From: Mortierella sp. BCC40632
Lineage: Eukaryota; Mortierellomycota; Mortierellomycetes; Mortierellales; Mortierellaceae
Direction of reading: 5' to 3'
Length of the DNA stretch: 64,000 bases
Assembly (NCBI GenBank): GCA_011634665.1
Contig: WAEK01000008.1
Span: 179,501-243,500, forward strand
Position numbers and translations under genes: made by a program. The stretch's first letter is position 1. Each line of letters starts with the position of its first letter. The notes below the pieces were generated by a model. It saw only the letters and a list, made by a program, of their open reading frames with translations. It made no database searches and had not been told where the DNA came from. Positions 35,070 through 57,964 of this stretch are shown here, piece by piece.

Positions 35070-36069
35070 GACGATAACCACAATTAAGAAAATCTGTTTA
35101 CCCCCCTCCCTCCCCCTTTTTCAACTCTCTTCTCCTCTCCTCCACTCTCTCGTTCCGAACAATGCAGCTCCAACTACATACATTAAAAAGGCATTAGTCA
35201 ATACAAGAAAAGAGAACCATGAGTGGGTACTATCGCAAGAGTACATGAACATGTCGATTGTCTTTTAGGTCCTACGGCTGAAAGAAAGCATCGTCGAATT
35301 AGTTGAGTTTTTGGAATAATTTCAAAAAAAAAAAAAAAAAAAAAAGCCGGCTAGCAACAACAACACCGCTACTTTCAAGTCCACCTCTAATCGTCGTCAG
35401 ACATTGTGCATGAAGCTTCGCCAGTCATCTTTTTTTCTTTCTTTTTTCTTTGGACATATGCTGTTCTTGATGCGTGAGAACCCAAATGGGGACTCAAAAC
35501 AAAGAGAAAAGATACTCTCTAAAAAACTTTTGCTTGGCTCATCTCTGCATCCTATTTCACCATCGTGCACTGTACAAACCACACTAACTTTGAGTAGAGT
35601 ATACTACAGCTGTCTTTGGTACCGAAAAGGAGACAATCGACTTGAGTTGAGTTGCATAATATCCTTTCAAAATGCACGCGCCGACCCTCATTACAGGTTG
35701 TCTGCGGACAGATGTGGTTCCTGCAAATCATGCAGCGCGTTGGTTTTCCTATTGCCATGCCGATAGCCCTATCTTTTTCCATATGAAATTCCTACACAAT
35801 CCTCTGGTCAAAGAGAAAAGCAGATGATGGACGGAAACTGCCATATTGTATTAAGCTGTGAACAAGAAAGAAGCACAGGAAGGTTCCAGTTGTTGGGGAT
35901 GAAAAGGGAAAGGACGAACGGGCTTAATAGGGATATCTCTCGCCCATTCAAACTGGCTCTTCACCACTCTGCTTCTTTCCCTTCCATTCCCCTAACAGTC
36001 TCTGCGAATTGTACTGACAACACTACCTCATCCTCAAGCCTCTCATCCCCAAGCCTCCGTTCAACCAAG
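35070..36069. other. 3' region of MICOS gene and promoter of array copy 1
   Basis: Up to about 35400 this is 3' UTR and spacer (poly-A at 35325-35345). From about 35455 (TTGATGCGTGAGAA) the sequence is the duplicated upstream segment found before every array gene, including the GCACGCGCCGACCCT block at 35674-35688. The TATA position reads TTAATA (35924-35929). Confidence 0.7.
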
Positions 36070-36603
36070 ATGGCTCGCTCCACGGTCCTATTCATCGTGA
36101 TTTTGATGGCTTTCCTCCAGGTCTGCTCTGCCCTCTACTCTGAAAAGGTCGTTGAGATTGGACTCGGGAATTTTCTTCTTACCGATGAAGGAGAACAAGG
36201 GGTTGTCCTCCTTCCTAAGAAAGACAACTTGAAGAATCAACAGCGGGCTGTTGAGTTCTTGGGCAGAAGTGAATTCTTTTTCCGTAACTTGGAATCCAAC
36301 AATTATCTTTCTTACAAGGGTCTGCCGCGACCAAATGAGCGTTTGATAACCTTGCCAGAGAAGCGCGCATGGAGGCTAAATATCTTGAGGCCAGACACGT
36401 TCTACATTGAGACTCTGGAGGGATTCGGTGGCCAACCTCTGGCTGCTACTCAATCACCAACTGACATTTGGCCTTTTCATGTCGTTCTTGAGTTCCCTGG
36501 AAAGTCTGAGGATCAGATTTGGTCAATCCGACCTGTCACTAAGCTCAACGAGGAGTCACGCCAGTATCGCCTCCCCCACAAGAAGCCTGGTCTTTGCTAC
36601 TAG
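36070..36603 (+). CDS. Array copy 1: small secreted beta-trefoil-like protein
   Basis: Intronless, 177 residues. The ATG at 36070 is chosen because the ACCAAGATGGCTCGC context and signal peptide (MARSTVLFIVILMAFLQVC) match the other copies; an upstream in-frame ATG only adds promoter-coded residues. Signal cleavage is probable after Ala21. The mature chain is about 156 residues with three blocks, each ending in an aromatic or hydrophobic strand: QQRAVE (Trp replaced by Arg in this copy), RAWRLN, DQIWSIR. It ends in RQYRLPHKKPGLCY with the sole mature cysteine next to last. Predicted extracellular. The pattern suggests a beta-trefoil like fungal lectins or I66-type inhibitors; this is inference, and no ligand or target can be named. 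Most diverged of copies 1-5, and its TATA is degraded (TTAATA). Confidence 0.8.
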   Translation: MARSTVLFIVILMAFLQVCSALYSEKVVEIGLGNFLLTDEGEQGVVLLPKKDNLKNQQRAVEFLGRSEFFFRNLESNNYLSYKGLPRPNERLITLPEKRAWRLNILRPDTFYIETLEGFGGQPLAATQSPTDIWPFHVVLEFPGKSEDQIWSIRPVTKLNEESRQYRLPHKKPGLCY

Positions 36604-37066
36604 CTGACAGTTAATTATCCTCTGTAGTTTCTGTTTCAATGAACTGAGAATGTTTAGTCTTGAGCCTTATCTTCTCGACTTGGAATAAATTAGTGTTTTT
36701 TGAGTCAACAAGGAGTATAATATATGATAATATCAATGAAGCAGCAGCAGCAGCGATTAGAGACGGAATCATGGTTTTTGGATCACTAGGAATGATAATC
36801 AACAATAAGAATTTCGCTTTCACAATCCATTTTTGTTGCACCTTCCCGACCTTTTTCAGTTTTCAGAGGTGTGGACTCTTAGGCCTTCACTATCACTCCT
36901 ATTCAACATTCCTGGAGCACAAATATATTTAGAGCAAGAGATAAGAGACAGAGAGATGGGTGGCTATCACTCTATTGTCCTTTGAAAGGCTCTTCTATCA
37001 GAGCTTGGTGATGATTCAGTTCTGGAGTATTCCGCAATGTTGGATTCATGATTTACCTGAAGGAGA
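36604..37066. other. Array spacer after copy 1
   Basis: 3' region with AATAAA in the conserved CTTGGAATAAA context (near 36680), a (GCA)n run at 36740-36752, then the CTTTGAAAGGCTCTTCTATCAG spacer block that recurs after copy 4 (near 44795). It is interrupted by the LINE fragment at 37067. Confidence 0.65.
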
Positions 37067-38277
37067 TTGGTAGGACCCAACCTTCAAGCGGGTACGCTCC
37101 CCTTCAGAACATCAAATGAAAATAGCTTTCTTTTTCTCCTCGCTCACAACGCCATCACAACGGCCAACGAGAAGGTGAGATAGTAAGCATGGTAAGGTAC
37201 AGGGGTGACAGGCAAATACAAACGCTGTCTTATCGACTACCCTGGCCACACGCCTCGCAAAGAAGACCTTCGGCATGTCTTTGCTGACTGTGGTGCTATC
37301 TGGGCTCTGCAGAGAAGCACTGTGTGTGGATCTCCACTCTCTTCCTAGGCATCAGGCCAATGCGAAGCTCCTAATGACTCGATGCTCTTCTGGCTAGGCG
37401 TCCCTCCCCCGACTCTCAGTTCACATCCACTTAGTGGTTGCGCACGGCATCTGGAGAACATTCTTGGCTATCAATGAACTCGAACTAGATCAACCGCCAC
37501 CGGACTACACAGCGGACGACTTGCTTTGACTCACGAGCACCACTCTCAAACTGCGAGCACGGATGGCGCTCACCCATGCCAACCTCAGAGACAACCGGAG
37601 GCAGCACTCAAAACCAGACGCAGCACTACGAGCGGATGTGGAAGATTTGGAGCTGTCCTCCTCACATTTTTGTGACCAAAGAGGAGGCAGTCTTTGGTGC
37701 GATGTGGTCCACCCTGGCTATTGCTCTTACCTGGCCAAACCGGGAGACTGCACGCCTCCAGTTAGCCACGCGGAGCCAAAGCCTCCAGATGTCCGAAGGA
37801 TTGACCCTTTCGATTTGACTGATTGGGAGCTGTTGTCGCTCTGGATCCTTGGATTTCCTACCCTAGCTGTAGAACTACTCCTGACCCGCCTCCCTGATAG
37901 CTCACCCCTGTGCCCCAGCGATTTGAACCGACGACTGGTTACACGATTAGACCAACAGAATTTTAACCATTTAACTGTATGCTCTCATAACGACACCAGT
38001 GCTATTTCAGCGAGCACTAGAGTTAACCGGCTACTTTTCATTTCGCCGGTTCAATTCAGTGAGTGAGTGTGCCCTGTCTTGAATTTTTCCCATCTGCTTT
38101 ATATTTTTGCTTTTACCTCTTTGTTTCTGGGTCACCCCCTCCTACTTCCCCTTTTATGTCTAGATAGTCTTCTTTTCTTTTCAAAATAAAGAGACAGTGG
38201 TGGCCATGTCCTTTGCAGACCATGGAAATACGCGCGTCGACGAAGAAAGCCTTGAACGAGGCTAATAAAAAAATGAC
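37067..38277 (+). mobile_element. Degraded 3' fragment of a LINE-type retrotransposon
   Basis: Translations show the end of a non-LTR reverse transcriptase: RCLIDYPGHTPRKEDLRHVF followed by ADCG (a Cys-His-type terminal finger), then LVVAHGIWRTFLAINELELD (near 37430-37490), with stops and frame changes. The 3' end has an AATAAAAAAA tail (38263-38272). It interrupts array spacer: TTACCTGAAGGAGA (37053-37066) and TTAGCTGGAGGAAA (38278-38291) look like a diverged 14-base target duplication (11 of 14), and the spacer after copy 4 shows the empty site. It is 5'-truncated and inactive. Confidence 0.7.
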
Positions 38278-38291
38278 TTAGCTGGAGGAAA

Positions 38292-39831
38292 AACCTCGGC
38301 AGGGACAAAGGATCATGGCAAGGGAAGCGAAAAGTCAGAGTGAAAGGGTCTTGAGGCTCAATCTAGGGACGTTACTGAAGGTACTCGTTCCGTGTGCATC
38401 ACTCCTCCTATTGGCTTTTCGATTCTACTGCAGTACCATAACAGACGAGATTTGAGCCAAGACATCGAGCCGAGTTTTTTTTTTTTTTTTTTTTTTGTTC
38501 TTGAGGCATTTTCCCTCCAGCAGCTTGCATAGCGATAGTGAGGGATAGTTGTCTACAGTTTGAAGCAGACCTGTCTATCCTCATTCTTTGAGTAGTCTTA
38601 GACAGCAATGCAATCCGTGTTGGTATTTTTATCGAGGAGTGCATTCACTATTTTTGACCATTCTATGATCAGAATCGAGCCAGCGGTATCGTTTTGATAG
38701 AGATCACTTCGTCCTTCACTACATGAGGTTTTCTTCACCTTTCTATAAGAGAAGAGATAGATTGACCGGTTTCCTGAATTTAACGTAGCACCCTCAAAGA
38801 TATCTCTGCCCCCAGACCTCTGGATCCCTGAGACAAGTGGAGCGGGAGAGTAAGGGGTGGACTTAATGAGCTGCAATCACATCGCTTGGCGGCGATTAGT
38901 GACTTGACTGCCGAGCCTCTGATCAAAAGTAATCGTCTACCTCAGAGTCGAAAGCGACAGTTTATCGCTTTTTTTTTTTTTTTTTTTTCGCTCTCCCTGT
39001 CGCGTTACACAAACAAACAAACAAACAAAAAAAAAAAAAGTCGAGATCGCATATGGGAGCGATGTATAAATTTTAGCCCTGAGGGGAGGAGGAGAGGAAG
39101 AAGACGAATAATGCTTTGGAGCATACTAAACAATGGTGGGGGCTTGACTAATACCTGAATAAGCTATTTCAGTTATCTCCTTCTCTATCTCATGGCAGAC
39201 ATTACTAGGTCCGACAGCTTTTTTATGTCATATTCTATCTTTGTTATGTGGGAACCGGAGAGATAGTCTTCAAGCTAGTAGTAGAGGCCCTCTTCGAGAA
39301 TCACTACCCCTATTATCTCGTACTTGGCTCATATCTGTATCCAATTTCATCATTATAGGTTGCTACAATATGCTTCAGTCCTGTGAGAAAATGTTGTGGT
39401 TGTCTTTGATGTCGAAAAAAAGGTCAACCTGTCGAATCTCCAGTAACATTGGAGAATTGACCTGCTCTAGCTGCATAAACTGCACGCATTGACCCTCATT
39501 GTTGGTTATCAGCGGGCTGCAGAAGATGAGGTTCCTGCAAAACTTGCACGCGTGTCTACCACACTGATAGCTCTTTCCATGCAAGCTTCTCACGCAATGC
39601 TTTGAATATGGAGAAAAGCAGATGGTACCAATTTGCATGAAAGCAGCGCAGAGAGGCCCAGTTGTTGGAGAGGAAGAGGGAGACGACGAACAAGTATAAA
39701 TAAAGATATCTCTTGCACCCATACCTTCCACTCAAATTGACTCTTCACCCGCTCTCTGCCTCGTCATCCTCCACCTTTCTGCCTATCCAACAGTTCCCAC
39801 CACCTTGTCTTCAAGCCCCCGTTCAACCAAG
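38292..39831. other. Array spacer and promoter of copy 2
   Basis: Spacer homologous to those before copies 3 to 5 (GGATAGTTGTCTACAG near 38545, TCGAGCCAG, CTTCACTACATGAGG near 38715). It carries a poly-T at 38474-38495, poly-T at 38970-38988 and an (ACAA)n run near 39008-39027. The duplicated promoter segment starts at about 39220 and has GCACGCATTGACCCT at 39482-39496. Confidence 0.65.
39695..39702 (+). promoter_or_regulatory. TATA box, array copy 2
   Basis: TATAAATA in the conserved GAACAAGTATAAATA context, 137 bases before the ATG. Confidence 0.7.
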
Positions 39832-40371
39832 ATGGTTCGCTCCACGGTCCTACTCATCGCTCTTTTGGTGGCCATCATCCAAGTCTGTTCTGCTTTCTAT
39901 TTCGAAGGAAGGCTCGTTGAGATTGAACTCGGAGAATTTCTTCTTACCGATGAAGGAGAACATGGGGTTGTCCTCCTTCCTAAGGAAGACAACTCCAAGA
40001 AGCAACAGTGGGTTGTTGAGCGCTCTGGACCCGATCATGAATACATTTTTCAAAACGAAAAATCCCGCCTTTATCTTTCTTACAATGGCGGGCCGGAACT
40101 AGGAGAGCGTCTGACAGTCTCACCAGAGCCGCGCACATGGAGACTGATTTCCTCGGTACCAGGCAAAGTGTCCATCGAGACTGTGCAAGAATCCAAAGAC
40201 GGACCTCTGGCTGTTGCCCAATCACCATCCCGCATCTGGCCTCCCATTGTTGTCCTTGATTACCCTCGAAAGACTCCGGATCAGCTTTGGTCAATCCGAC
40301 CTATCGAAGGGCTCAACGAGAAGCCACGCCAGTACCGCCTCCCCTACAAGAAAACAGGTTTTTGCTATTAG
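39832..40371 (+). CDS. Array copy 2: small secreted beta-trefoil-like protein
   Basis: Intronless, 179 residues. Signal peptide MVRSTVLLIALLVAIIQVC, mature start near AFYFEGRLVEIELGEFLLT. Three Trp blocks are intact: KKQQWVVE, RTWRLIS, DQLWSIR. The YIFQNEKSRLYLSYNG strand pair and the PSRIWPPIVVLDYPRKTPD segment precede the last Trp. Complete C-terminus RQYRLPYKKTGFCY with the single Cys. Intact promoter and AATAAA in the 3' region (near 40454). With copies 3 and 5 this is one of the best-preserved members. Confidence 0.85.
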   Translation: MVRSTVLLIALLVAIIQVCSAFYFEGRLVEIELGEFLLTDEGEHGVVLLPKEDNSKKQQWVVERSGPDHEYIFQNEKSRLYLSYNGGPELGERLTVSPEPRTWRLISSVPGKVSIETVQESKDGPLAVAQSPSRIWPPIVVLDYPRKTPDQLWSIRPIEGLNEKPRQYRLPYKKTGFCY

Positions 40372-41846
40372 TTGATAGTAAACTATCCTCTGTAGTTGAT
40401 GTTTCAATGGGCCAATGAGTGTTTAGTCCCTGTGTCTTTTCTTCTCAACTTGAAATAAACAAGGATAATGTCTATTGAGCCAACAAGGAGCTGTGTACGG
40501 CATTTTCAATGAAGGAGCAGCGGAGGCGATCAGAGATAGAGTCATGGCATTTGGACCATGAAGAATGATAGTCAACAACGAGAATCTTTCCCCCATTCTC
40601 TGTGTTGTACTCTGGACTTGCACTCCTCCTTCTACTCCCTCGACTCTTTTAAAGTGCCTATGACAGACCTGACTACTTAAGAGACATTGAGTCAGGGCAG
40701 AAAAAGGCAAAGTATTTTTGTTCTCTCAGGTACTCTGTTAACAACAGCCTGCATAGCAAGGGATACTTGTCTGCAGTGTAGAGTCGATCTGCCTGTCTTC
40801 ATCCTTGAGCAGTCCTAGAGATTTATGTTATCTTCGTTTGTATTTCTATCTTGGAGTGAAAACACTACTTTTGACCTTTCCGAGATTGGAATAGAGCCAG
40901 AAATGTTGTCTTGATCGAGAACAACTTGTCCTTCGCTACACGGAGGTTTCATTCACTGATCTAGAAGGATAGAGATGGATTGACAAGTTTCCTAATTTTG
41001 TTACAACAACTCCAAGGATATCTAAAGGATTGGATCGCAGGATATCCGAGGCTTGTGAGGTGATAGGACAAGGAATGGACTTGATGATTTCCAATAGCAA
41101 GACTTGGTGGTGATGAATGACATGATTATTGGGGTACTCACTGTACTGATCAGATGCCTTGAAGAATACTAAACGATGACAAGAACTCGACTAATACCTG
41201 GATAAGCATTTTCAGTCGTCTCCTCTTCTCTACCTCATGGTAGAAATTGCAAGACTCCAGAGCTATTTTACGTCATACTCCATCCTTGATGCGTGGGAAT
41301 CAGAGGGATTGTCACTAGGCGAGTAGTAGAGACTCTCGCTGAGTCACTACATCTAATGTATTGCACCTTACTCATCTCTGCATCCAATTTCATCATCATA
41401 GGCGTTAACAACGCGTTGACTTTGTGTGGGATATTATTGTGGTTGTCTTTTGTATCGAAAAGGAGGAGATCAGCCCGCGTCGAGTCTCCAGTCCATTGGA
41501 GAACTATCCTGCATAAGATGCACGCATTGACCCTTCTTCCTTTTGCCACACTAAAAACTCCTCTTTCCATATGAGTTTCCCACACGACTCTCTGGTCAAG
41601 GAGATAAGTCGATAGCACCGATTCGTGTTTGAATGTGAACAAGAAGGTAGCGCCGAGGGGATGCTTTAGTTGTTGGGGATGAAGAGAGAGAAGGCGAACA
41701 GGTATAAATAGAGATGTCTCTTGCACTCATACCCCTTACTCAAATTGACTCTTCACCCCCTCCTCACCCCTCTGCCTCTCCTCTTCCACCTCTCTGCCTA
41801 TCCAACAGTTTCCACCACCTCATCCTCGAGTCTCCGTTCAACCAAG
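40372..41846. other. Array spacer and promoter of copy 3
   Basis: Spacer of the same type as that after copies 3 and 4. The promoter segment starts near 41268 and has GCACGCATTGACCCT at 41520-41534. Together with copy 3 it forms a unit of about 2.0 kb that is repeated almost unchanged as unit 4. Confidence 0.7.
41703..41710 (+). promoter_or_regulatory. TATA box, array copy 3
   Basis: TATAAATA in the AACAGGTATAAATAGAGAT context, 144 bases before the ATG. Confidence 0.7.
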
Positions 41847-42380
41847 ATGGTTCGCTCCACGGTCCTACTTATCGCTCTCTTGGTGGCCATCATCCAAGTC
41901 TGTTCTGCCTTCTATTTCGAAGGAAGGCTCGCTGAGATTGAGCTCAACGGGCTTCTTCTAACCGACGAAGGAGGAGTTGTCCTCCTTCCTAAGGAAGGCA
42001 ACTCCAAGAAGCAGCAGTGGGTTGTTGAATCCACTGAAGGCAATCAAAAAGTCGTTTTCCGAAACTTAGAATCCAACCTCTATCTTTCTTTCGATGGTGA
42101 ACCGGAACCAAATGAGTTTTTGACAGTCTCTCCTGAGCCGCGCGTATGGAAGCTGGCTGCCCTGACACCATACAAATACACCATCCAGACTGTGCAGGAA
42201 TACCAAGGCGAATCTCTGGCTGTTGCTCAATCGCCAGTCCGCATTTGGCCTCCTCGTGTTGCCCTTGATTATCCTCGAAAGACTCCGGATCAGGTTTGGT
42301 CAATCCGATATCTCGAGCAGCTCAACGAGGAACCACGCCAGTACCGCCTCCCCTACAAGAAGGCTGGTCTTTGTTATTAG
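41847..42380 (+). CDS. Array copy 3: small secreted beta-trefoil-like protein
   Basis: Intronless, 177 residues, nearly the same as copy 4 over its first 155 residues. Signal peptide as in copy 2; mature start AFYFEGRLAEIELNGLLLT; Trp blocks KKQQWVVE, RVWKLAA, DQVWSIR. Complete tail RQYRLPYKKAGLCY with the lone Cys. ATG to ATG distance to copy 4 is 1998 bases, and coding and spacer sequence are both alike, so these two units are the youngest duplication in the array. Confidence 0.85.
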   Translation: MVRSTVLLIALLVAIIQVCSAFYFEGRLAEIELNGLLLTDEGGVVLLPKEGNSKKQQWVVESTEGNQKVVFRNLESNLYLSFDGEPEPNEFLTVSPEPRVWKLAALTPYKYTIQTVQEYQGESLAVAQSPVRIWPPRVALDYPRKTPDQVWSIRYLEQLNEEPRQYRLPYKKAGLCY

Positions 42381-43844: not shown

Positions 43845-44324
43845 ATGGCTCGCTCCACGGTCCTACTTATCGCTCTCTTGGTGACCATCATCCAAGTCTG
43901 TTCTGCCTTCTATTTCGAAGGAAAGATTGCTGAGATTGAGCTCAACGGGTTTCTTCTAACCGAAGCAGAGGGAGGAGTTGTCCTCCTTCCTAAGGAAGAC
44001 AACTCCAAGAAACAGCAGTGGGCTGTTGAATCCACTGAAGTCAATCAAAAAGTCGTTTTCCGAAACTTAGAATCCAACCTCTATCTTTCTTTCAATGGTG
44101 AGCCGGAACCAAATGAGTTTTTGACAGTCTCACCTGAGCCGCGCGTATGGAAGCTGGCTGCCCTGACACCATACAAATACACCATCGAGACTGTGCAGGA
44201 ATACCAAGGCGAATCTCTGGCTGTTACTCAATCGCCAGTCCGCATTTGGCCTCCTCGTGTTGCCCTTGATTATCCTCGAAAGTCTTCGGATCAGGTTTGG
44301 ACAATCCGACCTATCGAGAAGTGA
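43845..44324 (+). CDS. Array copy 4: C-terminally truncated secreted protein
   Basis: Intronless, 159 residues. Signal peptide and all three Trp blocks are present (KKQQWAVE, RVWKLAA, DQVWTIR). The frame then ends at TGA (44322-44324) after RPIEK, and the conserved last 18 or so residues, including the lone Cys, are lost. Compared with copy 3, about five bases (CTCAA) are missing there, shifting the frame. In the old frame GAG and CAG codons have also become TAG. The whole trefoil core may still fold, so it may be a shortened product or a young pseudogene. Confidence 0.8.
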   Translation: MARSTVLLIALLVTIIQVCSAFYFEGKIAEIELNGFLLTEAEGGVVLLPKEDNSKKQQWAVESTEVNQKVVFRNLESNLYLSFNGEPEPNEFLTVSPEPRVWKLAALTPYKYTIETVQEYQGESLAVTQSPVRIWPPRVALDYPRKSSDQVWTIRPIEK

Positions 44325-45774: not shown

Positions 45775-45851
45775 TCCCTTCGTCTGTCGCAAGTCACATA
45801 GTACACCCGCAAAAATAGGAAGCTCTTTCGCTTCCAAAACAGACGAAGGGA
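45775..45851. mobile_element. 77-bp MITE with TA target duplication
   Basis: Perfect 13-base terminal inverted repeats (TCCCTTCGTCTGT at the left, ACAGACGAAGGGA at the right) enclose about 51 bases and are flanked by TA on both sides (45773-45774, 45852-45853). Paralogous promoter segments lack it: copy 2 reads ATTATAGGTTGCTACAAT at the same place, where this unit reads GTTA-element-TAGGCTGTAACAAT. TA duplication suggests a Tc1/mariner-family transposase in trans. Confidence 0.85.
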
Positions 45852-46033
45852 TAGGCTGTAACAATGCGTCTACTTTGCGTGGGAGACTGTTGTGGTCGTC
45901 TTTGGTGTCGATCAACTAGTGTCGAGTCTCAAGTTGAACAATTGACCTGCATAAATATGCATATGCACGCATTGACCTTCATTGTTGGTTTCCAGGTGGA
46001 CAGCTGAATATGTGATTCCTGCAAATCATGCAA

Positions 46034-46139
46034 TCGCTTTCCTCAGGTCTAAAATTTCCGCTTCGCTCTCGCATTCGCTCTCGACCTTTAAGGGGTGCTT
46101 TCATCCTGCGTGTAACCATGCGAGAGCGAATCGAATCGA
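46034..46139 (+). repeat. Left terminal inverted repeat of the Harbinger element
   Basis: Starts TCGCTTTCCTCAGGTCTAAA and contains internal GCGAGAGCGAAT motifs in both orientations, possibly transposase or Myb-like protein binding sites. Confidence 0.9.
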
Positions 46140-46256
46140 AAGCGAGCTTTTGTCGCTCTCGCCCTTTGCTCCTCAGAAAGTGGCTTTGAAAAAGTAATAA
46201 GGCGAGAAGCCAGTCGGTCTGTCACAGGCACTTTTTCCCACCCAACTCCTTCAGCA

Positions 46257-47818
46257 ATGGCCGACAACAGACATCATTCCGCTCAAAATCAGCAAAGCAC
46301 TATTGATATCGTTGAAGGTTCCAAATATCAGCAAAGTGCCTCCTCAACTCAGTCTGCTGCTAGCAACAGTTCTATCTTCACCTCTACTCCTCGACCAAGC
46401 AATTCCTTTTCAAACATTGCAGCCAACTCGACAATACGTTCATCTCGAGGCAGCCAGGAGTTTTAACCCTCACTATCCAACACAACCATCGCCTGGAGAG
46501 CACTCTACTCAGCATCAGAGCAACACTCTTCTACAGTTTCAACAGCCAAACTCGCAGCATCAACAGAATTTTTATTATCAACGACAGTCTCAGCAAGTGC
46601 CTCTCTCGCCGGTCAGTCGTGGACCGCCAGCACCACAGGTACGGTCAATTTTTATGGCTATTGTCATAATCGACATGATAGAGACTAATCCCGGCACTAA
46701 TTGTTGCTATGGTAGTTCATCCCGACCTCGGCCCTGCTTTACCGTCCCCAGCTTTCCACTTTTATTGCCACACCACCATCACCTTCTTCAACAATATTGA
46801 ATTCTCCTACTCCGACACACTCTGTTCGCTCGATGACTTCTCCTCCTCCTCCTCGACCTCTTTCTCAGGAACCAAGCTCTGACTCTTCCGAGGACGAAAT
46901 TTTACAGCACTCACGGAAACGGAAAGCTGGCGTTTCTGAAGCTCCAAACCGACGTAAGCGACAGTCGCCATCGCCATCCCCTCATCCTCCACAAAGGCCT
47001 CACAATCTCAGCACAATGAAACTTCAGGAAGAGCGCCAGCCATCAACTTTACTCAAGAACACGAGATCTTTATCGCCGAACATCTGATCCTTCCGTCGAA
47101 CTGGCCTGTTTTGACGGCAAGGGGAAAACAAAAACATCTACGCAGCAAGATCGACGTCTGCACCGATGTCGCTCAAGAGTTCAATAGGCGGTTTACGACC
47201 GATGGAAGTTCTGTTGCAGTGGACAAAACACAAATGAAGAACAAGATAGAGAAGATGATCAGGACTTTCAACCAAGAACAAAGCTACTACACGTCAACTG
47301 GCAATGGTGACATTGTGGGAGGTCAAACACTTGACGATCGTATGCGGAGGAGATGTCACTTCTTCTTCATTTTAAACAATGTTGGAAAGCAAACCACCAC
47401 CAGTATTACTCCTCATCATTCCAGGGAGATTTTAGGACGACAGGCTGCTGGCAAACTCAAAACTGTTACCACCACAAAAGATGATAGCGATAATGAATGG
47501 AGTGATGTCAACAGTGAAAATGGCGGTAGTAAAAATGACAACCCTAGAGGCGACTCTCAAGCGGCTCGTCTCTCACCAGCATCATCTACCCAGACAAGGA
47601 GGTCAAAGGACAGAGGAAGCTCCATTCCAGAGTTGAACTCAGCTGTCGAGCTGCTTCGTGAGCAATCACAGGAAAGGTCAGTTAGAGAAAGGGAGGCCTC
47701 GATCAGGGAGAAGGAGAGATCGGTCAGAGATGAAGCGAGACTACGTTTGGAGGAAGAGAAACACCATTTTTTTGTGAGAGTGCAGGAGTTGGAAATAGAA
47801 AGAAAAACAAGAAAATAG
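46257..47818 (+). pseudogene. Harbinger Myb/SANT-like protein gene, frame-broken
   Basis: Starts at ATG 46257 (MADNRHHSAQNQQ). A 77-base intron (46639-46715) has good GT-AG ends. The domain region reads INFTQEHEIFIAEHL, LPSNWPVLTARGKQKHLRSK, KTQMKNKIEKMIRTFNQEQ (about 47040-47270). It fits the trihelix/SANT-like DNA-binding domain of Harbinger ORF1 proteins, which bring the transposase to the element ends. A charged coiled coil follows (REREASIREKERSVRDEA). The frame changes at three homopolymers: TTTT 46461-46464, CCCC 46978-46981 and AAAAA 47803-47807. After the last one coding sequence seems to run on towards 48030. No substitution-type stops are evident. Confidence 0.7.
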
Positions 47819-48029
47819 GAAACGAGAATTGGAATTGGAGCTTCTCAAGGAAGAAGTACGAGCGAAGAAACTCGAAAATGACGAACGAGCGAGGAATCAA
47901 CGGAGGACATCGCCTCCATCGGTAGTAGCGGAAACAAAGCTCCCTTCTATCTATTACACTGTCAACAATGTTCCCCAAATTACCAAGGTCAAGATCCTGC
48001 AGCACTTCTCCGCCAAGGTCATCTTAATG

Positions 48030-49385
48030 TTATTCATTAAATATGATTGCCTTTCTCTGTGCTCGTTTGAGGTCGCCCTGTACTTTCATTGCCGCGTCAT
48101 ATCGCTCGACCTCGCGAGGATCATCAAAGTTGATTGGAAACCTGTGAGTTCTCTCAGCTTGGACATCAGGCGTTTGCGTTGTCTGTCGTCCTTCACAGTC
48201 CATAAGCTCTTTGCCATTAAAGCGGATGAGAATGTTGTGTAAAACCACACATGCAAAAACATGATTGGTCATCCTCTCAATATCGTCCTCTGATCGAGCG
48301 CGCATCTGCAGCTTGGTCAAAGATGGGAACTTTCCTTTGAGCATTCCAAAGGCATGCTCAATCTTTACCCTACTAGAACTGAGCCGTTGGTTGAACTCTT
48401 GGGCATTCGGAATCCGGGTCTGCATTCTGGAGTACCCTGTCATTAGAGTCGGAGACGATTTGTATGCTGAGTCCCCTAGCAAATGCTCCTCGCCAGAAAA
48501 GTACTGGTGTTTTCTCGCGATACTGGGGCGTTGTCTTGAATGCTGAGGAGTCGTGCCAACTTCCATAGTAGCCTGTTGAAAAGGCAGTGAACACACCTCT
48601 ATGATCGCAAATCCCTGTTGCGCCCATCGCAAAAAGTAACCCTTTCTTGTTGCCCACTCATGTCGATTCCAAGACGGCGCGTACGCAAAAGGTATCAACG
48701 TCCCATCAACTGCGCCTATTGCATCTGGGAAACCTCTTTCTGCAAAATAGGCTTTGATCGTTCGTTTCCTTCCGGCATCCGGCCATTGGATAGCCATTTC
48801 AGCAAGGTCAAGCAATGCTGAGACAACCCGGGTGTAATAATCAAAGGCTGTACCCACAGAGACCCCCATTGCCGGTCCAATTGATTCAAAAGCCGTAAGA
48901 GATCCTACATGAGAAAGTCTTTGGATGGCAATTTTGAATTGAACCTCCACAGAGGCTTGGGGCTTCTTTCCAGTCGATCGAAAAATAGGGTTGTCTTTGA
49001 TAAGCCCGACAATAAACTGAAGTTGCTCCCGAGTCATACGAAACGCTTGCTTGAAAATCTCTGGGCTTGCCGTTGACAGAACTTGCTCCCTGTATACATC
49101 GGATTTTAAATACATCGATACAGTTCTCGGGACCAAATATCGAGATAGTCGAAGATGGCGTAATAACATCAGTAGATGCAAGGAGTGTATGGTGGCGGCC
49201 TCCTGATCCCACACAGAATCGCTGTGAGTCGCCTCAGTAAGCGTCCAGGTAAGGAGAAGCAAGGTTGTTGCGATTGCTGGTGCTCGAGGGTCGTGGGAAC
49301 AGCGAGGATAGCGAAGAGAACGCATAATATGTGAACCCGTGCCTGGTTGAAGTGTGAGATAGGTGAACAAAAAATAATAGAGCAT
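48030..49385 (-). pseudogene. Harbinger DDE transposase, compensating frameshifts
   Basis: An open frame of 451 residues from ATG 49385. The nuclease core has FPDAIGAVDGTLIPF (first Asp), HLLGDSAYKSSP (second Asp) and SRVKIEHAFGMLKGKFPSL (Glu), the DDE triad of PIF/Harbinger (DDE_Tnp_4 type), and a C-terminal FACVVLHNILIRF. Between the first and second Asp the frame is wrong: the expected CDHRGVFTAFSTGYYGSWHD block lies in another frame (48657-48500). Shifts occur at the A5 run 48631-48635 and the A4 run 48497-48500, and they cancel. The product as written would therefore have a scrambled segment and be inactive. Role: excision and insertion of the element. Confidence 0.8.
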
Positions 49386-49421
49386 GAGAGAGGGCGAGAA
49401 GAGAGAAGAACCGAGCAGATC

Positions 49422-49527
49422 TCGATTCGATTCGCTCTCGCATGGTTACACGCAGGATGAAAACACCCCTTAAAGGTCGAGAGCGAATGCGAGAGCGAAG
49501 CGGAAATTTTAGACCTGAGGAAAGCGA
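49422..49527 (-). repeat. Right terminal inverted repeat of the Harbinger element
   Basis: Reverse complement of the left repeat with one difference (T for C after GGGGTG). Confidence 0.9.
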
Positions 49528-49907
49528 ATGCGTTAGTCTTTCTATTACCACGCCAGTGATTCTTCTTTTCATACGAGTTTCCCACGCAATTTTTTGGTCA
49601 AAGAAAAGAAGATAGCGGATGGAGGCTGCCAATTCGCATTTGGATGTGAACAAAGCAGCACTGAGAGGTTCCAGTTGTTGGGATGGGAGACGAACAGGTA
49701 TAAGTAGGGATATCACTTGCACTCATCTCCCTCACTCAAACTGACTCTTTACACCCTCTTCCTCTTTCACCTCTCCATCTCTCCATCTCTCTTTCTCTCC
49801 ATCTCTCTTTCTCTCTTTCTCTCCTTCTCTATTTCTCTCCTTCTCTTCACCTCTCCACCTCTCCAGTGGTCTCCACCACCTCATCCTCAAACCTCTGTTC
49901 AGCCAAG
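49528..49907. other. Promoter-proximal segment and leader of copy 5
   Basis: The part of the duplicated promoter left downstream of the Harbinger insertion, followed by a 5' leader expanded with CT-rich repeats (49750-49860). The upstream GCACGCATTGACC block of this unit is now about 3.7 kb away, at 45965-45979. Confidence 0.7.
49699..49706 (+). promoter_or_regulatory. Variant TATA box, array copy 5
   Basis: TATAAGTA in place of TATAAATA; 209 bases before the ATG because of CT expansion in the leader. Confidence 0.6.
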
Positions 49908-50447
49908 ATGGCTCGCTCCACGATCCTAATTATCGCTCTCTTAGTGGCCATCATCCAAGTCTGTTCTGCCTTCTATTTCGAAGGAAGGCTCGTTGAGATT
50001 GAACTCGGAGATGTTCTTCTTACAGATGGTGGAATGGATGGGGTTATCCTCGTTCCCAAGAAAGAAAGCTCAAAGAGGCAGCAGTGGTTTATTGATTCAA
50101 TCGGAAGCAATCATGAATTCATAATCCGCAACAAAAAATCCAACCTTTATCTTTCTTTTGAGGGAAAGCCGCAGCGTGGCGAGTTTTTGACAGTCTCGTC
50201 CGTGCCGCGCGTGTGGAGGCTGACTCCGTGGGAACCAGGCAAGTACTCCATCCAAACTCTGGAGAAATCCATTGACGGACCTCTCGCCGCTGCCGAATCA
50301 CCATACCGCTCTTGGCAACTTCGCGTTATTCTTGATTACCCTCAAAAGACTCCGGATCAGGTTTGGTCCATCCGAATTGTCCTTGGACTCGATGAGGAGC
50401 CACTCCAGCACCGCCTCCCCTACAAGAAGGCTGGTCTTTGCTACTAG
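49908..50447 (+). CDS. Array copy 5: small secreted beta-trefoil-like protein
   Basis: Intronless, 179 residues. Signal peptide MARSTILIIALLVAIIQVC, mature start AFYFEGRLVEIELGDVLLT. Trp blocks KRQQWFID, RVWRLTP, DQVWSIR; complete tail QHRLPYKKAGLCY with the lone Cys. The coding region is intact although the promoter holds two transposon insertions and an altered TATA, so expression may be changed or lost while the protein remains sound. Confidence 0.85.
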   Translation: MARSTILIIALLVAIIQVCSAFYFEGRLVEIELGDVLLTDGGMDGVILVPKKESSKRQQWFIDSIGSNHEFIIRNKKSNLYLSFEGKPQRGEFLTVSSVPRVWRLTPWEPGKYSIQTLEKSIDGPLAAAESPYRSWQLRVILDYPQKTPDQVWSIRIVLGLDEEPLQHRLPYKKAGLCY

Positions 50448-52717
50448 CTGAAAGCTACTCTTTTCACTGACCATCTCAGTGGACCGGGAGCGTTTGGTCC
50501 TGTGCCTCTTCTTCTTGATTTGAAATAAATCATGACAACGCCCATTTGAACATTCTAGTAGCTATGGTGCATGGCTTTGTCAACGGACAGACGGTAATTA
50601 GATATAGAGTCACTGCCATTGGACCATTGGGGATGAAAATTGACAATGAGAATCTTCAACCTTCGCTAGCACCCTTATTCACTTTATTCTGGAGCGCGAA
50701 GGGGTTTGAAGTATGAGAGCGGAGATGAGAAAACTGTTGCTTGTCTTTTGTTCCACGCGAGAATCTTTTGTGGGAACTAAATGTTGATCGAATCATGGGA
50801 GTACCGCTCGTTATGACATTTTGTCTTGCAGGGAAATGTGTGAATATGTGAAGTGTAGGGATGTGTTGCGGTTCAGTGGGTGAAGATAAGACATGGCTGC
50901 CAATTTGTTCAGCTGCCTCAGGACTGTTTTACACATCCTAAGATGCCTCAATTCGACGAAAACGATTCCTACCAACAGAGAAGTTGATATCTGGATTTCG
51001 GCCCAATAAGGACAGTGTTAAACATATCCAAAGTTCTTAGTCTATCTCTGCAGCCATCACCTCCTATGCTATCACCCGTCAAGCGACAACAGAGTGAGAA
51101 GGTGTGTGTGAGTGTGTGTGTATGTGTGACCTGGAAAGTTTGATCCATGATCGAGTCCCATGGTAACAGTTACAGCCTCGTTCGCTCCACTCGCCCCTTC
51201 TCAGACTGCGACTTATTCTTCCTTCGAGCACTGTCCACATCTCATATCCCCTTCCCAATGTTACCATTCCTACACCCCGACTCTGATAAGGAGAATGGGG
51301 TCAGCTCGCATATCTGCAGAATGCCCCAAAGGAAAGTAATTTTGTCTCTTGGACTTGGTCATACTACCGGAACAACCGCTGGCACAGCCTCCAATTATTC
51401 TCTTGTGGAACCCTTTACTCTTGACACTTGATTTTCGCGAAGTACCTTCACGAGTCTCCCTCTTTTCGAAACCATGGGAGCCAGGAAGAAAAAATTAGTC
51501 CCTTTTTTGAACTACTAATAGAGTAACTATTATTCAATAGACTGTTTTGTCAATAAGCACTGGTCATGAATTGAATACAGGGGGGTCAGAAGATGAAGAG
51601 GACGGCTTAAATGAAGGTGGTTGTGATGTTAATTGAGCTAGAATTGGGATGCTTTGAGCGAGAAGCCGAGGTGGCAACGAGGAGAGAAGATATATCAACA
51701 CTCCTCCTTCTGTTGGAAGACAATAGTCGAGAATTTAATTTTAAGGCTGTGGGACAGGACAAGCTCGTGGGGGAGACCATTCTCGAGACTATGTTTCTTT
51801 ATGACTAAACGAAGGTAGGATCAAGCAACCCTATTCTCTCTGTCTCTCCTTTTCTTTTTCTTTCTTTCTTTCTCTTCCAGTACTAGGAAACGTGACAAGA
51901 GTATCTGAACCTCCTTTCAATTTACTTGTTTTCCAGTCTGATGATTTCAGGTGATCTGTCCTAACACAACAAGGGAGCACTGCAAGAACCATAAAGTGAA
52001 AGAAGGAAAGGGCACGGATACCTCAACGCGTGAACTTGAAATGAGTTTAACCCAGCAAGGCAACAGGTCAGCCATCCAGAATGATACCCATAATCTGAAC
52101 ATTGCGTGAACACGAAGAGAATAGTTTGTCGGCGTAGATGCTACTCATGATGTGTGGGAAACGGAGAGATGGACTCCAAGCAGGTAGTAAAGGCCCCCTT
52201 CTCTGAATGCTATTCCTCCTGCTACTCAGTACTCCTTGATCATCTCTACGTCCAATCTCATCGCCACGGCACGCTTACTCTGTATGAGAGAAACTGCAAT
52301 CGATTTCCTGACAGCGAAAAGGAGTTAATCCACTCGGATCAATTCTCGAGCTCATTGGCGCATAAAATGCGCGCATTGACCCTACCTTTTTGGCTTTTAT
52401 TGGTCTAGATGTGAATTCTGCTAATCATGCACGCGAAGTTCCCTTCTTTCCATGAGAGTTTCCCACGCCAAATGCTAAGTTAAAAGATGGACAGAAGCTG
52501 AGGACTTGTGTTCTGGTGTTTGGAGGTGAACAAGAAAGCAGTTCTAGTTGGGATGAAGAGGAGATTCTCGAACAGGTATAAATACAAAGATTTCTATATT
52601 AGCGTCCTCAAACAACCCGTCTCTTTTGTGCCTCTTCCTCTTATACCTCGCTATCAGCCCTCAACCAGTCGCACCGATAACAACCTCCTTGTATCCATGA
52701 GCCTTTGTCCAACCAAG
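50448..52717. other. Array spacer after copy 5 and promoter of copy 6
   Basis: 3' region with TTGAAATAAATC (near 50520), then about 1.5 kb of diverged spacer. A block near 51120-51200 (GGAAAGTTTGATCC, GAGTCCCATGGTAACAG) recurs near 57700-57750. Short open frames at 51147 and 51611 have no recognisable domain. The promoter segment begins near 52135, with GCGCGCATTGACCCT at about 52369. Confidence 0.6.
52577..52584 (+). promoter_or_regulatory. TATA box, array copy 6
   Basis: TATAAATA in the GAACAGGTATAAATAC context, 141 bases before the chosen ATG. Confidence 0.7.
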
Positions 52718-53266
52718 ATGATTCGCGTCACGGGTCTATTAATCGCTCTCTTGGTGGCCACCATCCAACTCTGTACTGCCTTCTATATCAATGAACGTGT
52801 ATTCGAGATTGAACTCGACAGACTTCTTCTTTCCAGTCAAGGATCTCAAGGAGAGGTTTTTCTACTTCCTAGAGATTATGATGGATCGAGGAAGCAGCAG
52901 TGGATTATTATCTCCACCGATGACACTTTTGTATACACTATCCGCAACAGGGAATCTGGCCTTTATCTCTCTTTCAAGGATGGACCGCGACCAGGCAAGA
53001 CTTTGACACTCTCACATGAGCCGCGCAACTGGGAGGCAGCAATGTATGAGCCAGGCAGGTACTCCTTGATGGCTCAGGAGAAATTCGATGACGAATCTTT
53101 GGTTGTTGCCAAGTCGCCAGACCACCATGAGCCCCCTCATGTTATTCTTGAGCTTAATCGGAAGACTCCAGATCAGCTTTGGGCAATCCGGCCTGTCAAA
53201 ACGCTCACTAAGGAATCGCACCAGTACCGTCTCCCATACAAGAAGGCTGGCCTTTGCCACTATTGA
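52718..53266 (+). CDS. Array copy 6: diverged secreted beta-trefoil-like protein
   Basis: Intronless, 182 residues from the ATG in the ACCAAGATG context (an upstream in-frame ATG at 52697 adds seven residues). Signal MIRVTGLLIALLVATIQLC, mature start AFYINERVFEIELDRLLLS. Trp blocks RKQQWIII, RNWEAAM, DQLWAIR; tail HQYRLPYKKAGLCHY, so the lone Cys is kept with one extra residue after it. Clearly older than the copy 2-5 group. Acidic and His-rich changes (PDHHEPPHVILEL) are shared in position with copy 7. Confidence 0.85.
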   Translation: MIRVTGLLIALLVATIQLCTAFYINERVFEIELDRLLLSSQGSQGEVFLLPRDYDGSRKQQWIIISTDDTFVYTIRNRESGLYLSFKDGPRPGKTLTLSHEPRNWEAAMYEPGRYSLMAQEKFDDESLVVAKSPDHHEPPHVILELNRKTPDQLWAIRPVKTLTKESHQYRLPYKKAGLCHY

Positions 53267-54098
53267 CGAAGAAACTATCTTCTCTAGAAGAATATTTTAG
53301 TGGACCGAGAGAGTCTAGTCTTGAATCACTTCTTCTCGACTTGGGAATAAACCAGGATAATGTCAATTTGGGTCTACAGGTGGCTATGGCGTGGGACTTT
53401 ATCGATAGAGTAGCAGTGTTTTAAGAGAGTCATGACCTTTTGAACAACGAGAAACAATAGTCAGTAACGGTGATCATGCATTCACTCTCCTTACATTGAG
53501 ACCCTCTCGCGATCTCCTATTGCCATTTTATGCAAGTTAGAACAAGGTCATAAGTGGACTTGAGGTAATAAAGAATAGGCCCAGAGATAGCCAGTTTCTA
53601 TTCCTGTGTTCTTTGGGGGGTTTTTCTGTTAGAATTTCGTGAAAATCTAATCTTTGAAGAGTGTCACTCAAGTGAGCTTTAACAGGTTTTGAGTATGAAG
53701 ATGACAAGTAGATTGTGAAAAAGCGCGTTGTGTTGTAGTGGGTTGCAAGTGTTCATCCTCACGCTGTGATAGAGGTCTACAGAGTTCACAACAGACCAGA
53801 CCTATTTGAAGACTTTTTGGCTAAAAAAGAATAGAAGAGTGACTAGTCAAGAAGACGGGTTCAAGTGTTTTGACAACGACTTTTCCCCCTTGATATCTAT
53901 TCCTTTCGACAAAGGAACCGTTTTTAGAATCTCAGCTCTAAAAAGACAACATTGAGCATCTCCACTCATCTTTATAGCCGCCGCCTCCTCCCTCAACCGG
54001 CTCCTACTATGTAAAGCCAAGCACAAACGTCTGACTTAATTTTGATTACACTTCAAGTTACTTCTTGTCATTACCCATTCCCGAATCTTGAAGGCAAA

Positions 54099-54129
<31 letters not shown>

Positions 54130-54706
54130 AAGAAAGAAAAGTCATTTTCTGGGCCCATCGCTGAGGGTCATCGGCTTTTACATACAGACTGCTGTCTATC
54201 TTTCAAGATGCCACTCCTTTTGGGTCGTTTTGAGGATCGTGTAGCACTTGGCATAACCAAAGGGTGCACCACAGCGCTTGTGCTTGGAACATGTTTGACA
54301 AGACAGATAAGTGAGTCGATGAACAGAACGGGACCTACATTATGATCACTATCACTTCTTGAGCGCAGAGAGAATAACTGTCATTCTGTTTGTTATCTTT
54401 GACGCGTGGGAACGGAGCAAAGAGCTCGAAGCAGATGTTCTTCCCGTCGTCTAGTACATACTGGGCCGCCAATCTGATCATCACGTGTTTGCCAGTACCA
54501 GAAGAAAAGGGGACTGACTCTGATCCAGCTCATTAGCTGATTGACTCACAGATCGCCCTAGACGTGGTTCCAGCTAGCCCATGCGCGAGCTGCACTGGTC
54601 AAAGAAGAAAGACTAGGGTCAATGGCATGCATTTTTGGATTGGACAAGAGGAGCAGATCTGAGAGGCACCAGCTATTGGGTATGAAGAAAGGAGTTTACA
54701 AGCAAG
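53267..54706. other. Array spacer after copy 6
   Basis: 3' region with TTGGGAATAAACC (near 53342), diverged spacer, a GA tract at 54106-54130, then a decayed promoter segment of the relic unit (GACGCGTGGGAACGG near 54402). Confidence 0.6.
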
Positions 54707-55075
54707 TATAAATAAGTGGATCGGCCGGAAGGTGACAAGATATTCATCAGAACTCTAGATGAACTCGATGACTGAACTCTAGTTACTACTATTTTGCGAC
54801 TGCACGTTGTGCCTCTTCGTGTTATTCTTGACTTTGCTATGGAGCCTGATCATTGGGAGTGTTTCCATTCAGTTTCGTTAAAGAGTTCCAAGAAGAGCCA
54901 TGTCAGCACCGCTTTCTCTGCAAGAAAGTTGACCTTTTGCTACTCATGGAAGAGGAAGACTATTCTCGGCCAGGGGGGATTCGTATCTCTTTTACTCGAC
55001 TTGGAATAAAAGCAGGACAATTTCCAGTGGATCAACAAGTAGTTTTGGCGTATGGGTTTGTCAATAGAAAAAAAA
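54707..55075 (+). pseudogene. Relic array copy (gutted)
   Basis: A TATAAATA box (54707-54714) stands at the usual place, but most of the coding region is gone. What remains matches the 3' end of the gene family: CCTCTTCGTGTTATTCTTGA (54810s), then an AGAGCCATGTCAGCACCGC-type segment and TTGACCTTTTGCTACTCA at the former stop. The 3' UTR is CGACTTGGAATAAAAGCAGG. Signal peptide and trefoil core are deleted. Two short overlapping frames here are not genes. Confidence 0.75.
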
Positions 55076-56442
55076 AACGATTAGATTTAGAGTCATGGCT
55101 AATAAACCACAAGGAGTGATCATCTACAACGAGAATCTTGCCCCCTTCCAACATTATTTTGACATTTTAATGCATAGCGAGGAAAGAAGCATGAGAGCTT
55201 GGTCAAGGAAAGACTATTAGACTCTCATTAGTACTCCTATTCACTTTTTTCTTTTAGAGCGCGAAGAGATTTAAGCAAGAGAGCAGAAAGATAGAGAGAT
55301 AGGTGGTTGCCTTTCTGTTATACTCTGGGATATTTTTTTCTGGGATGACCCGACTCTGAGAGTACCACTCAAGTAAACTACAATAAAATTGTCTAGGAGG
55401 AATATGAGCGATTAAGAAATGGCGCGTTGTGTGAAAGTGGATGGCGAATGACCACTCTCGCACGGCTGTGGAGATTTACAGAGCCAACGGCAGACCAGGC
55501 TTTAACGAGACTTAGGTCGAATTTTCAATCTTTTTTTTTTTTTTTTTTTTTTACCGTTTTGGGGATTGTATGGCTCTTGACAGATCACTGCTTTTTAAGT
55601 CTTTATCACTCATTAATCCCTTTGTCTGTTCGCCTTAATAACTGGTGTTCGACAAAAACTGCAGAGAGCATTGTAGAACTACAGAATGGAAGAGAGAAAG
55701 ACACGGACGCACTAACGTGTGAGGTTGAAACGTTGACACCGAGCAAAAGTTTACAGTTCAGAGCGGCACCCTTACTTTGGCTTTTTCTTGATCACAGAGA
55801 ACGCCTGTCAGTCTTTATTGTACCTTTGACACATGGGGATAGAGAAGAACTCAAAAAAACCAAAGTATCCCACTGAGGTCAACACCTTTTATCGTCCAGC
55901 GGCACTCGTTCTTAACTCTTGATCCACTTTCATCGTCACGACGCTCTTGCTCTGTGTGGGAGAATACTGTGGTTGTTTTGAGATTGATGGATATGCACGG
56001 TGCAGAACGAGGAATGGCACTCGAGCAGCGGAAAGGAGGAGATTGATTCCAAGTCAAGTTTCCAGTCCATTGGCGAATTGACCTGCATGATATGCGCGCA
56101 TTGACCCTCATTGTTAGTTTTCAATGACCTGGGTGTAGTTCCTGCAAATCATGTACGGGTGCGAGCTCTTCTCTCCCTTTCATGCGAGTTTCCCACATAC
56201 CTTTCTGGTCAAAGAAAGTGTCCAAGAGTTCTCAAGAGAACTGCACCGACGGGCGCCAGTTGTTGAGGAAGAGAAAGGGTTTTGCAAACAAGTATAAATA
56301 GGGACTCGAACCCCATTTACCTACTTTCTTCACTCCCTCTGCCTCCTTCTCCACTTTCTTTCTCCTCACCCTCTACCCTTTTAAAAGCTTTAGCCGACTG
56401 CGTCGACCACATCCCCAATTCACAGGCCTCCGTTTACAAAAG
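55076..56442. other. Array spacer and promoter of copy 7
   Basis: Contains a poly-T at 55532-55551 and spacer blocks of the array type. The promoter segment begins near 55820 and has GCGCGCATTGACCCT at 56094-56108. Confidence 0.6.
56293..56300 (+). promoter_or_regulatory. TATA box, array copy 7
   Basis: TATAAATA in the AACAAGTATAAATAGGGA context, 150 bases before the ATG. Confidence 0.7.
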
Positions 56443-56988
56443 ATGGCTCGCTCTACGGTTCTATTTATTGCTCTCTTGGTGGCCATAATCCAAGTTTGCG
56501 CCGCCCTTTATTTCGAAGAGGGAACAGTTGAAATTGAACACAGTGGGCTTCTTCTTACCGGTCAAGAACTTGAAAAAGAGGTTGTGCTCCTTCCCAGAGG
56601 AGATGTACCGAGAAGGCAGCGATGGGTTGTATTCCCCACCGAAAACATTCGTGAGTACGCTCTCCTCCACCGGGAAACCCAGTACTATCTTTCTTACAAG
56701 GGTGAGCCGCAACCAGGTGAGCCTTTGACACTCTCACGAGATCCGTTCCCGTGGAAGGTGGCAATGTTGGACCTAGGCTTATACACCATCGAGACAGCGG
56801 ATCTATTCGAGGGCAAATCTCTGTCCGTTGCCAAATCGCCAGACCACAAATGGCCTCCTCATATTATTCTTGAATACCCTCAGAATTCTCAAGATCAGGT
56901 GTGGTCAATTCAACCTGTGGTTCCTAGCATCGCCTCCACTAAAAGAGAATCTTTAAAGTTGCAATCTCAGTGGACTGAGAGTGTTTAG
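56443..56988 (+). CDS. Array copy 7: secreted trefoil-like protein with replaced tail
   Basis: Intronless, 181 residues. Signal MARSTVLFIALLVAIIQVC, mature start ALYFEEGTVEIEHSGLLLT. Trp blocks RRQRWVVF, FPWKVAM, DQVWSIQ. After VWSIQPVV the conserved RQYRLPYKKxGLCY tail is absent; the frame reads into sequence that is 3' UTR in other copies (TCTCAGTGGACTGAGAGTGTTTAG corresponds to the post-stop region of copy 5). It ends in LQSQWTESV, with no cysteine in the mature chain. A deletion removed the old end and stop codon. Promoter and TATA are intact. Confidence 0.8.
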   Translation: MARSTVLFIALLVAIIQVCAALYFEEGTVEIEHSGLLLTGQELEKEVVLLPRGDVPRRQRWVVFPTENIREYALLHRETQYYLSYKGEPQPGEPLTLSRDPFPWKVAMLDLGLYTIETADLFEGKSLSVAKSPDHKWPPHIILEYPQNSQDQVWSIQPVVPSIASTKRESLKLQSQWTESV

Positions 56989-57964
56989 TTCTGTATCTCT
57001 TTTTCTCGACTTGGAATAAACAAGGATAATACTCAGTGAACTTGCAGGTAGCTATCGTCTCTAGCCTTGCTAATGGAAAAACGGCAACTGGAGATGGGAC
57101 CATGAGGAATGATAGTCGACAATGAGAGTCATGCTTTCACTATCCACGCCAGAGGCTCTCACTTATTCCCATTTATCTATCTTTTTTTCTTTGGCCTATC
57201 ATGATCGGGATCGGCCAAGCGATGTTGTCTCCATCGGTGCCGCTTCTTCTCTCGCCATATGGAGTTTCTCTCGGCTGTCAAAAAGGGAGGAAATGGATTG
57301 ACTAATTTTTCAAAATACTGGTCGCGTCGGCTCTTCTGAGGCTTAATGTGCTCCAATGACATTGATTGGTGGTGGCGAAGGACGGACCGTTCACTTGCAC
57401 AGACCAGATTGTATCGATCACTGAACAATAACGGGATCATCCGACCAAGTCCTGGGCAAGTTATCTTTGGCCGTCTCCCCAAGTGCTTCCATAGTAATTT
57501 TTAATGCCCACCAATGATTTTATTCGATAAGATCGAATCCAGGATTCCGGATCTCGGCCCTTCAGAGACAATACTAGACAAGCCCGCTCTTCTTGACCCA
57601 TATTTATAACCACCATCTCTGCCACTACTATCTTCTCGTATGCCGCGACCTAAACAGGCGGCCTACAGGTTGAAAAAGAGAGAGGAAGAGAGATGCTTAC
57701 ATAGTTTGGAAAGGTTCGTCCCAACTCCCAAGACCGAGCCCAATGGCAACAGCAGCAGTCACCCTGACTCTCTCTGGCTGGCGGAGCTTGCGCACTTTTT
57801 TTTTTTTCCCTTTCCCTTCTCAAGCATTGTTCATTCCTCATCTCTCGCTCTTCCCACGTCCCTTCCCATTGATTCCTTACTCGTTCTGCGATTGGCCTGA
57901 GCAGGAGAACATAATCTAGTCAAAACACCTACCAGCAAAATACAAAGAAAAAAGGAAAGAAATA
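56989..57964. other. Right border of the array
   Basis: 3' region of copy 7 (CTTGGAATAAACAAGG, near 57010) and one more spacer copy (GAGTTTCTC, GGATTGACTAATTTTTC near 57290, TTGGTGGTGGCGAAGGAC near 57366), reaching about 57800. The thioredoxin-like gene starts just beyond, so the array ends here. Confidence 0.65.

Follow-up and report, generated by a model that had tools for sequence, protein, structure and literature searches.

A tandem array of predicted secreted beta-trefoil genes with a variable fold and a conserved tail in Mortierella sp. BCC40632

Why should a fungus keep a row of small genes in which the folded domain varies while a short tail stays fixed? The question is raised by a 64,000-nucleotide stretch of the genome of Mortierella sp. 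BCC40632 (contig WAEK01000008.1, positions 179,501 to 243,500, or C8:179501-243500 in our contig labels), here called the window, which we studied together with the rest of the genome (49.9 Mb searched, 62 contigs). The genes encode a family whose predicted fold is a beta-trefoil. Fungal trefoil lectins and inhibitors have been studied mainly in mushrooms, and the present family comes from a soil phylum; a secreted, tandemly expanded relative with a diversifying fold is a concrete and cheaply testable way into the encounters of Mortierellaceae with grazers or microbes. In this paper we report that the fold of the expanded clade of the family is under diversifying selection, chiefly in the first two trefoil repeats. 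What is new is the inversion of selection, the fold evolving at a ratio of nonsynonymous to synonymous change (dN/dS, omega) of 0.82-0.89 and the tail, predicted to be disordered, at 0.28-0.29. Such inverted conservation is unusual and calls for its own explanation.

The array consists of seven intronless plus-strand open reading frames (ORFs) of 159-182 aa and one relic, lying between 36070 and 56988 of the window:

36070..36603, plus strand: c1, 177 aa, tail present (ORF and tblastn)
39832..40371, plus strand: c2, 179 aa, tail present (ORF and tblastn); PF14200 23.1 bits, below the cut-off of 25.6
41847..42380, plus strand: c3, 177 aa, tail present, structure predicted
42336..42377, plus strand: conserved C-terminal tail of c3, 14 codons, residues 164-177, predicted disordered (predicted local distance difference test, pLDDT, <50)
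43845..44324, plus strand: c4, 159 aa, in-frame stop ahead of the tail
49908..50447, plus strand: c6, 179 aa, tail present; PF14200 30.5 bits, above cut-off
52718..53266, plus strand: c7, 182 aa, tail present, structure predicted; PF14200 30.7 bits, above cut-off
about 54728..54936, plus strand: relic of a further copy, frame-shifted and with a stop, seen as weak collinear tblastn fragments
56443..56988, plus strand: c8, 181 aa, unrelated residues in place of the tail, no Pfam match at E<=10

Pairwise tblastn among all seven ORFs gave E <= 1.4e-35, far beyond chance. The relic is made up of two collinear fragments in two frames, each weak on its own (best tblastn E 0.03), and a copy of the common 3' flank at 55078-55145 adds support. 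The DNA repeated between units extends into their upstream and downstream sequence. The original prediction, made from the letters of the window, had described a tandem array of seven intronless genes and a relic with duplicated flanks, and all of this was borne out; the conserved tail end that it also described is present in five of the seven ORFs and is replaced by an earlier stop in c4 and by other residues in c8. Downstream of the c4 stop, degraded tail DNA is still recognisable and contains two stops. In five of the seven copies a TATAAA element lies at -134 to -150; in c6 the element reads TATAAG and lies at -209, and the 300 bases upstream of c1 contain none.

AlphaFold2 models of c3 and c7 are confident beta-trefoils that lie near cocaprin 1 of Coprinopsis cinerea (PDB 7znx) and the mushroom lectin MpL of Macrolepiota procera (PDB 4ion), and the family is accordingly predicted to fold as a beta-trefoil, as had been guessed. 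The accompanying statement that no named family could be recognised proved wrong, for c6 and c7 pass the cut-off of Pfam RicinB_lectin_2 (PF14200); the interpretation as a whole was supported in part. These two were the only ones of six window copies scanned to pass; c2 and c3 fell under the cut-off and c1 and c8 gave no match. The database relative P0001 also passes (31.9 bits), and PF14200 matches 20 of 22 family members. Membership of the I66 protease inhibitors (PF16850) was rejected on profile scores. I66 inhibitors have a trefoil fold, and at E<=1 their profile matched three of 22 members (best 0.012), all outside the expanded clade and none at the curated cut-off; solved I66 inhibitors were not among the 50 structure matches listed for the models, although such a list excludes nothing. 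When the genome itself was searched with PF16850, the one match (21.5 bits against a cut-off of 27) fell at another locus, L043:1393-1947 on contig C12, where a small ORF of unrelated appearance begins like a signal peptide and may encode a further secreted trefoil.

A hydrophobic, signal-peptide-like N terminus is present in all 22 aligned members, in agreement with the signal peptide first proposed, and c3 has 156 mature residues if cleavage follows residue 21 (a site judged by eye), close to the 155 expected. Of three blocks said to close on a Trp motif, those with QQW and DQxW are QxW-like and the middle one, with R-x-W or similar, is not; most members have QxW in the first and third repeats, and the second lacks it. 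An N-x-x-S-x-L-Y-L-S strand, described as repeated, is found once per protein. An N-glycosylation sequon occurs in one of 24 members.

By sequence, MpL is the best solved relative and the match to cocaprin 1 is marginal (E 1.7). The cocaprin report describes these proteins without a signal peptide, as trefoils of a related kind able to inhibit proteases, namely C1 cysteine and aspartic ones (PMC9104457), whereas in the present family the N terminus is signal-peptide-like and a C-terminal tail follows the fold. MpL and CNL of Clitocybe nebularis (PDB 3nbc) are ricin-B-like lectins; the present family keeps their sugar-anchoring Asp only in part, and differs from both in its secreted-type N terminus and its Cys-containing tail.

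The 14-residue tail is the most conserved part of the family by column entropy. Over 17 sequences, in an alignment that left out five tail-less or tail-damaged members, entropy was 0.83 bits in the tail, 1.02 in the signal peptide, 1.68 in the fold strands and 1.82 in the rest of the fold; conservation over the entire signal peptide likewise exceeds that of the fold. Of 19 tailed members, 18 carry a net positive charge over their final 16 residues. The tail Cys is kept in 17 of the 18 members with a complete end, and in 15 of 19 the mature protein has no other. The signal peptide closes on a further Cys, at residue 19, which all 23 members having that end share; most tailed members have no cysteines in the ORF apart from these two. 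In two loci, L026 and L027, most of the tail is gone, yet both end with C-x-C cysteines, as if Cys were the part that was kept. Synonymous sites diverge alike in tail and fold, which places the conservation at the protein level; gene conversion or an RNA-level signal as its cause is thereby left unsupported. Another idea was that the tail travels as a mobile tag among unrelated proteins. A genome search with 20 aa of it found 13 places, all of them family loci or remnants (the diverged tails of L020, L022, L024, L029 and L030 were missed), and a search of protein-database entries of similar length with c3 residues 138-177 returned one match, the family member P0006.

Pairwise dN/dS by the method of Nei and Gojobori (NG86) was about 1 in the fold, near neutrality, with the tail constrained. 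The ratio of nonsynonymous to synonymous proportions (pN/pS), taken over six pairs of which some are of uncertain independence on the tree, was highest in the fold (0.71), lower in the signal peptide (0.46) and lowest in the tail (0.31; Fisher test of fold against tail, p 0.005; p 0.03 for the three closest pairs). Codon models were fitted with a purpose-written script, from which the omega and LRT values below come. For 13 tailed genes omega was 0.34 in the signal peptide, 0.89 in the fold, 0.94 in the linker and 0.29 in the tail (likelihood-ratio test statistic, LRT, 117); with regional rates freed the values were 0.47, 0.82 and 0.28 for signal peptide, fold and tail (LRT 21.5, p 2e-5).

The family divides in the tree into an expanded and an outer set (support 98/97; P0006, absent from the tree, was assigned to the outer set by us). 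In the expanded-clade fold, model M2a was preferred over M1a with an LRT of 64 (12 genes), and with near-gap columns removed the LRT was 48 for the 12 genes and 32.5 for the nine intact ones; a second alignment gave 34. The maximum in 24 data sets simulated without positive selection was 4.4. The favoured site class has an omega of 3-4. When the three thirds of the fold were given separate trees, the LRTs were 13.6, 27.8 and 3.2 with nine genes and 10.6, 40.3 and 5.5 with 12, so that the signal sits in the first two repeats. Sites with a naive empirical Bayes posterior above 0.8 in the masked nine-gene fit are T63, L74, N77, F91, V100, A105 and L106 of c3. For six outer genes omega was 0.39 and the M2a-M1a LRT was 0.

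Diversifying selection, together with the partial loss of sugar-site residues described below, suggests that the heads bind a partner which changes and which is more likely to be a protein. Our preferred, still tentative reading is that this is a tandemly expanded Mortierellaceae family of secreted ricin-B-like trefoils that serve as protein-binding heads on a constant Cys tail. For target, tail coupling and ecological role we infer the following. The secreted head would bind a molecule of another organism, be it grazer, competitor or bacterium; a protein, for example a protease that is secreted or serves digestion, is likelier here than a sugar, and repeats one and two would provide the binding surface. 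Different heads would be coupled to one common partner by the tail, which is basic and constant, through disulfide dimers or attachment to the hyphal surface. Tandem duplication, together with exchange between units, would generate new heads, and failed copies would decay in place. The array thus suggests an arsenal against a changing partner.

Exchange has left traces in the window. Kimura (K80) distances between c2 and c3 are 0.07-0.13 downstream, 0.25 in the fold and 0.29 upstream, and between c3 and c4 they are 0.05 in the fold and 0.25-0.27 in the tail and just downstream. These contrasts indicate that units have probably exchanged sequence with a junction near the fold end, which fits the swapping of heads ahead of a common 3' part. 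Taken further, the paralogues may form a repertoire of variable heads on a constant tail, coupled via the tail Cys to each other or to one docking partner on the hyphal surface, giving mixed multivalent binders that are renewed by exchange between tandem units; we regard this extension as speculative and rather improbable. In a bolder form of it, a clasp would join the signal-peptide Cys to the tail Cys, the N-terminal anchor being retained in the protein. Conotoxin-like precursors also combine a conserved signal peptide, a variable active part and tandem expansion. In the present family, unlike those, it is an entire beta-trefoil that varies, and constancy extends to a C-terminal tail as well.

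Several observations weigh against protein-binding heads on a common tail. The main caveat on the selection result is exchange between units, by which site tests can come out inflated. With the third repeat taken alone, selection is not significant (p 0.2 and 0.063), and the test of the outer genes has less power because they are fewer and more diverged. No enrichment of selected sites in loops was found (2/37 vs 5/55). Both c4 and c8 are without the tail, yet their folds are open. Foldseek ranked clostridial HA17 chains and MpL first to fourth and cocaprin 1 eleventh. We had entertained the idea that the outer clade is nearer to lectins by sequence, and the reverse holds, profile comparison with MpL giving E 3.5e-6 for the expanded clade and 1.6e-3 for the outer one. 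Loss of the third-repeat Asp may be a single event, since the 12 expanded members share ancestry, and the missing residue, as read from alignments, is compatible with glycan binding elsewhere on the protein, which it does not exclude.

The strongest competing account, which we consider possible though doubtful, is that these are secreted lectins which still bind glycans by remaining or non-canonical sites and are active against grazers or bacteria as the trefoil lectins of mushrooms are, the tail Cys providing the dimer needed for this activity. The PF14200 matches and the place of MpL as best solved relative speak for it, and in CNL, according to passages of PMC6930499, Asp20 anchors galactose and nematotoxicity requires carbohydrate binding and dimerisation alike. 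The sugar-site residues cut both ways. The first-repeat Asp, placed by HMMER alignment with MpL, is kept in 11 of 12 outer members and in six of 12 expanded ones, the other six having lost it. The third-repeat Asp, placed by our own motif reading, is present in nine of 12 outer members and in none of the 12 of the expanded clade, so that the third-repeat equivalent of Asp20, a mark of galactose-type ricin-B lectins, is missing there throughout; this clade-wide loss of a residue mostly kept in the outer members is a further new observation.

Mortierellaceae associate with plants, algae and endobacteria, and the proteins might be aimed at such a symbiotic or host partner rather than at a grazer or competitor. 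Secretion, expansion and diversification would suit any biotic interface and nothing specific stands against this account, to which we nevertheless give a low probability. Just as unlikely, in our estimation, is a largely redundant and decaying array whose high omega reflects relaxed constraint after duplication and not adaptation. The relic, the truncated c4 and c8, the broken copies L021/L032, L025 and L030 and the near-neutral pairwise ratio of the fold would all be expected of it; relaxation, however, yields no site class with an omega of 3-4, and nine genes keep an open fold, with constraint on tail and signal peptide alike. It is very improbable that the tail is a propeptide from which cleavage at R-x-x-R or K-K frees a short peptide with the trefoil mainly as its carrier: the tail is conserved, disordered, basic and at the protein end, and 15 of the 19 tailed members have a dibasic pair, but the other four have lost it whereas the Cys persists in 17 of 18, which mildly favours a bond or attachment over peptide release, and a mere carrier is not expected to be under diversifying selection.

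The family extends beyond the window. A genome search with c3 gave 24 matches at 23 loci, two matches being adjoining pieces of one broken gene, and with the window relic there are at least 24 loci, all such counts being lower bounds. A second cluster (C8:279510-288650; L017, L020, L021/L032, L025, L028) lies on the opposite strand about 36 kb past the right end of the window, and two or more of the genes in it are broken. A third, including L026 and L027, lies at about 1.00-1.017 Mb of C8; single copies occur on C12 and at other places of C8, while C17 and C1 carry distant relatives. One of the latter (L029:1261-1896, C17) contains an insert rich in His, and its fold has diverged strongly, with 29% identity to c3, yet a recognisable tail stands at its end. 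Protein-database searches gave six relatives (P0001-P0006) from three Mortierellaceae species of Podila, Linnemannia and Lunasporangiospora. In PMC open-access full text, which is without most subscription papers, we found no account of Mortierella ricin B lectins, of Mortierella beta-trefoil protease inhibitors or of lectins in a Mortierellaceae secretome; the passages on Linnemannia and ricin concern other fungi only, and in PMC10481521, a paper matching beta-trefoil and mortierell, 12 of 19 matching places hold nothing on the present family.

The array is interrupted upstream of c6 by a DNA transposon, which we take to be PIF/Harbinger-like:

46030..49531, no strand assigned: DNA transposon bounded by terminal inverted repeats of 110 bp that agree at 98.2%
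48030-49385, minus strand: transposase ORF within it, DDE_Tnp_4/Plant_tran (DDE_Tnp_4 E 3.2e-15)

Ten further window ORFs were scanned, one of them inside the transposon, and seven gave Pfam matches, one below cut-off: Nrap, Pkr1, a fungal transcription factor, Vms1-like bVLRF1 (in two pieces), Auto_anti-p27 (weak) and ARMET_C. At 30058-32873, bVLRF1, ankyrin and VATC domains are matched across two minus-strand ORFs, resembling a release factor of the Vms1/ANKZF1 type, and the pair is probably a single intron-containing gene.
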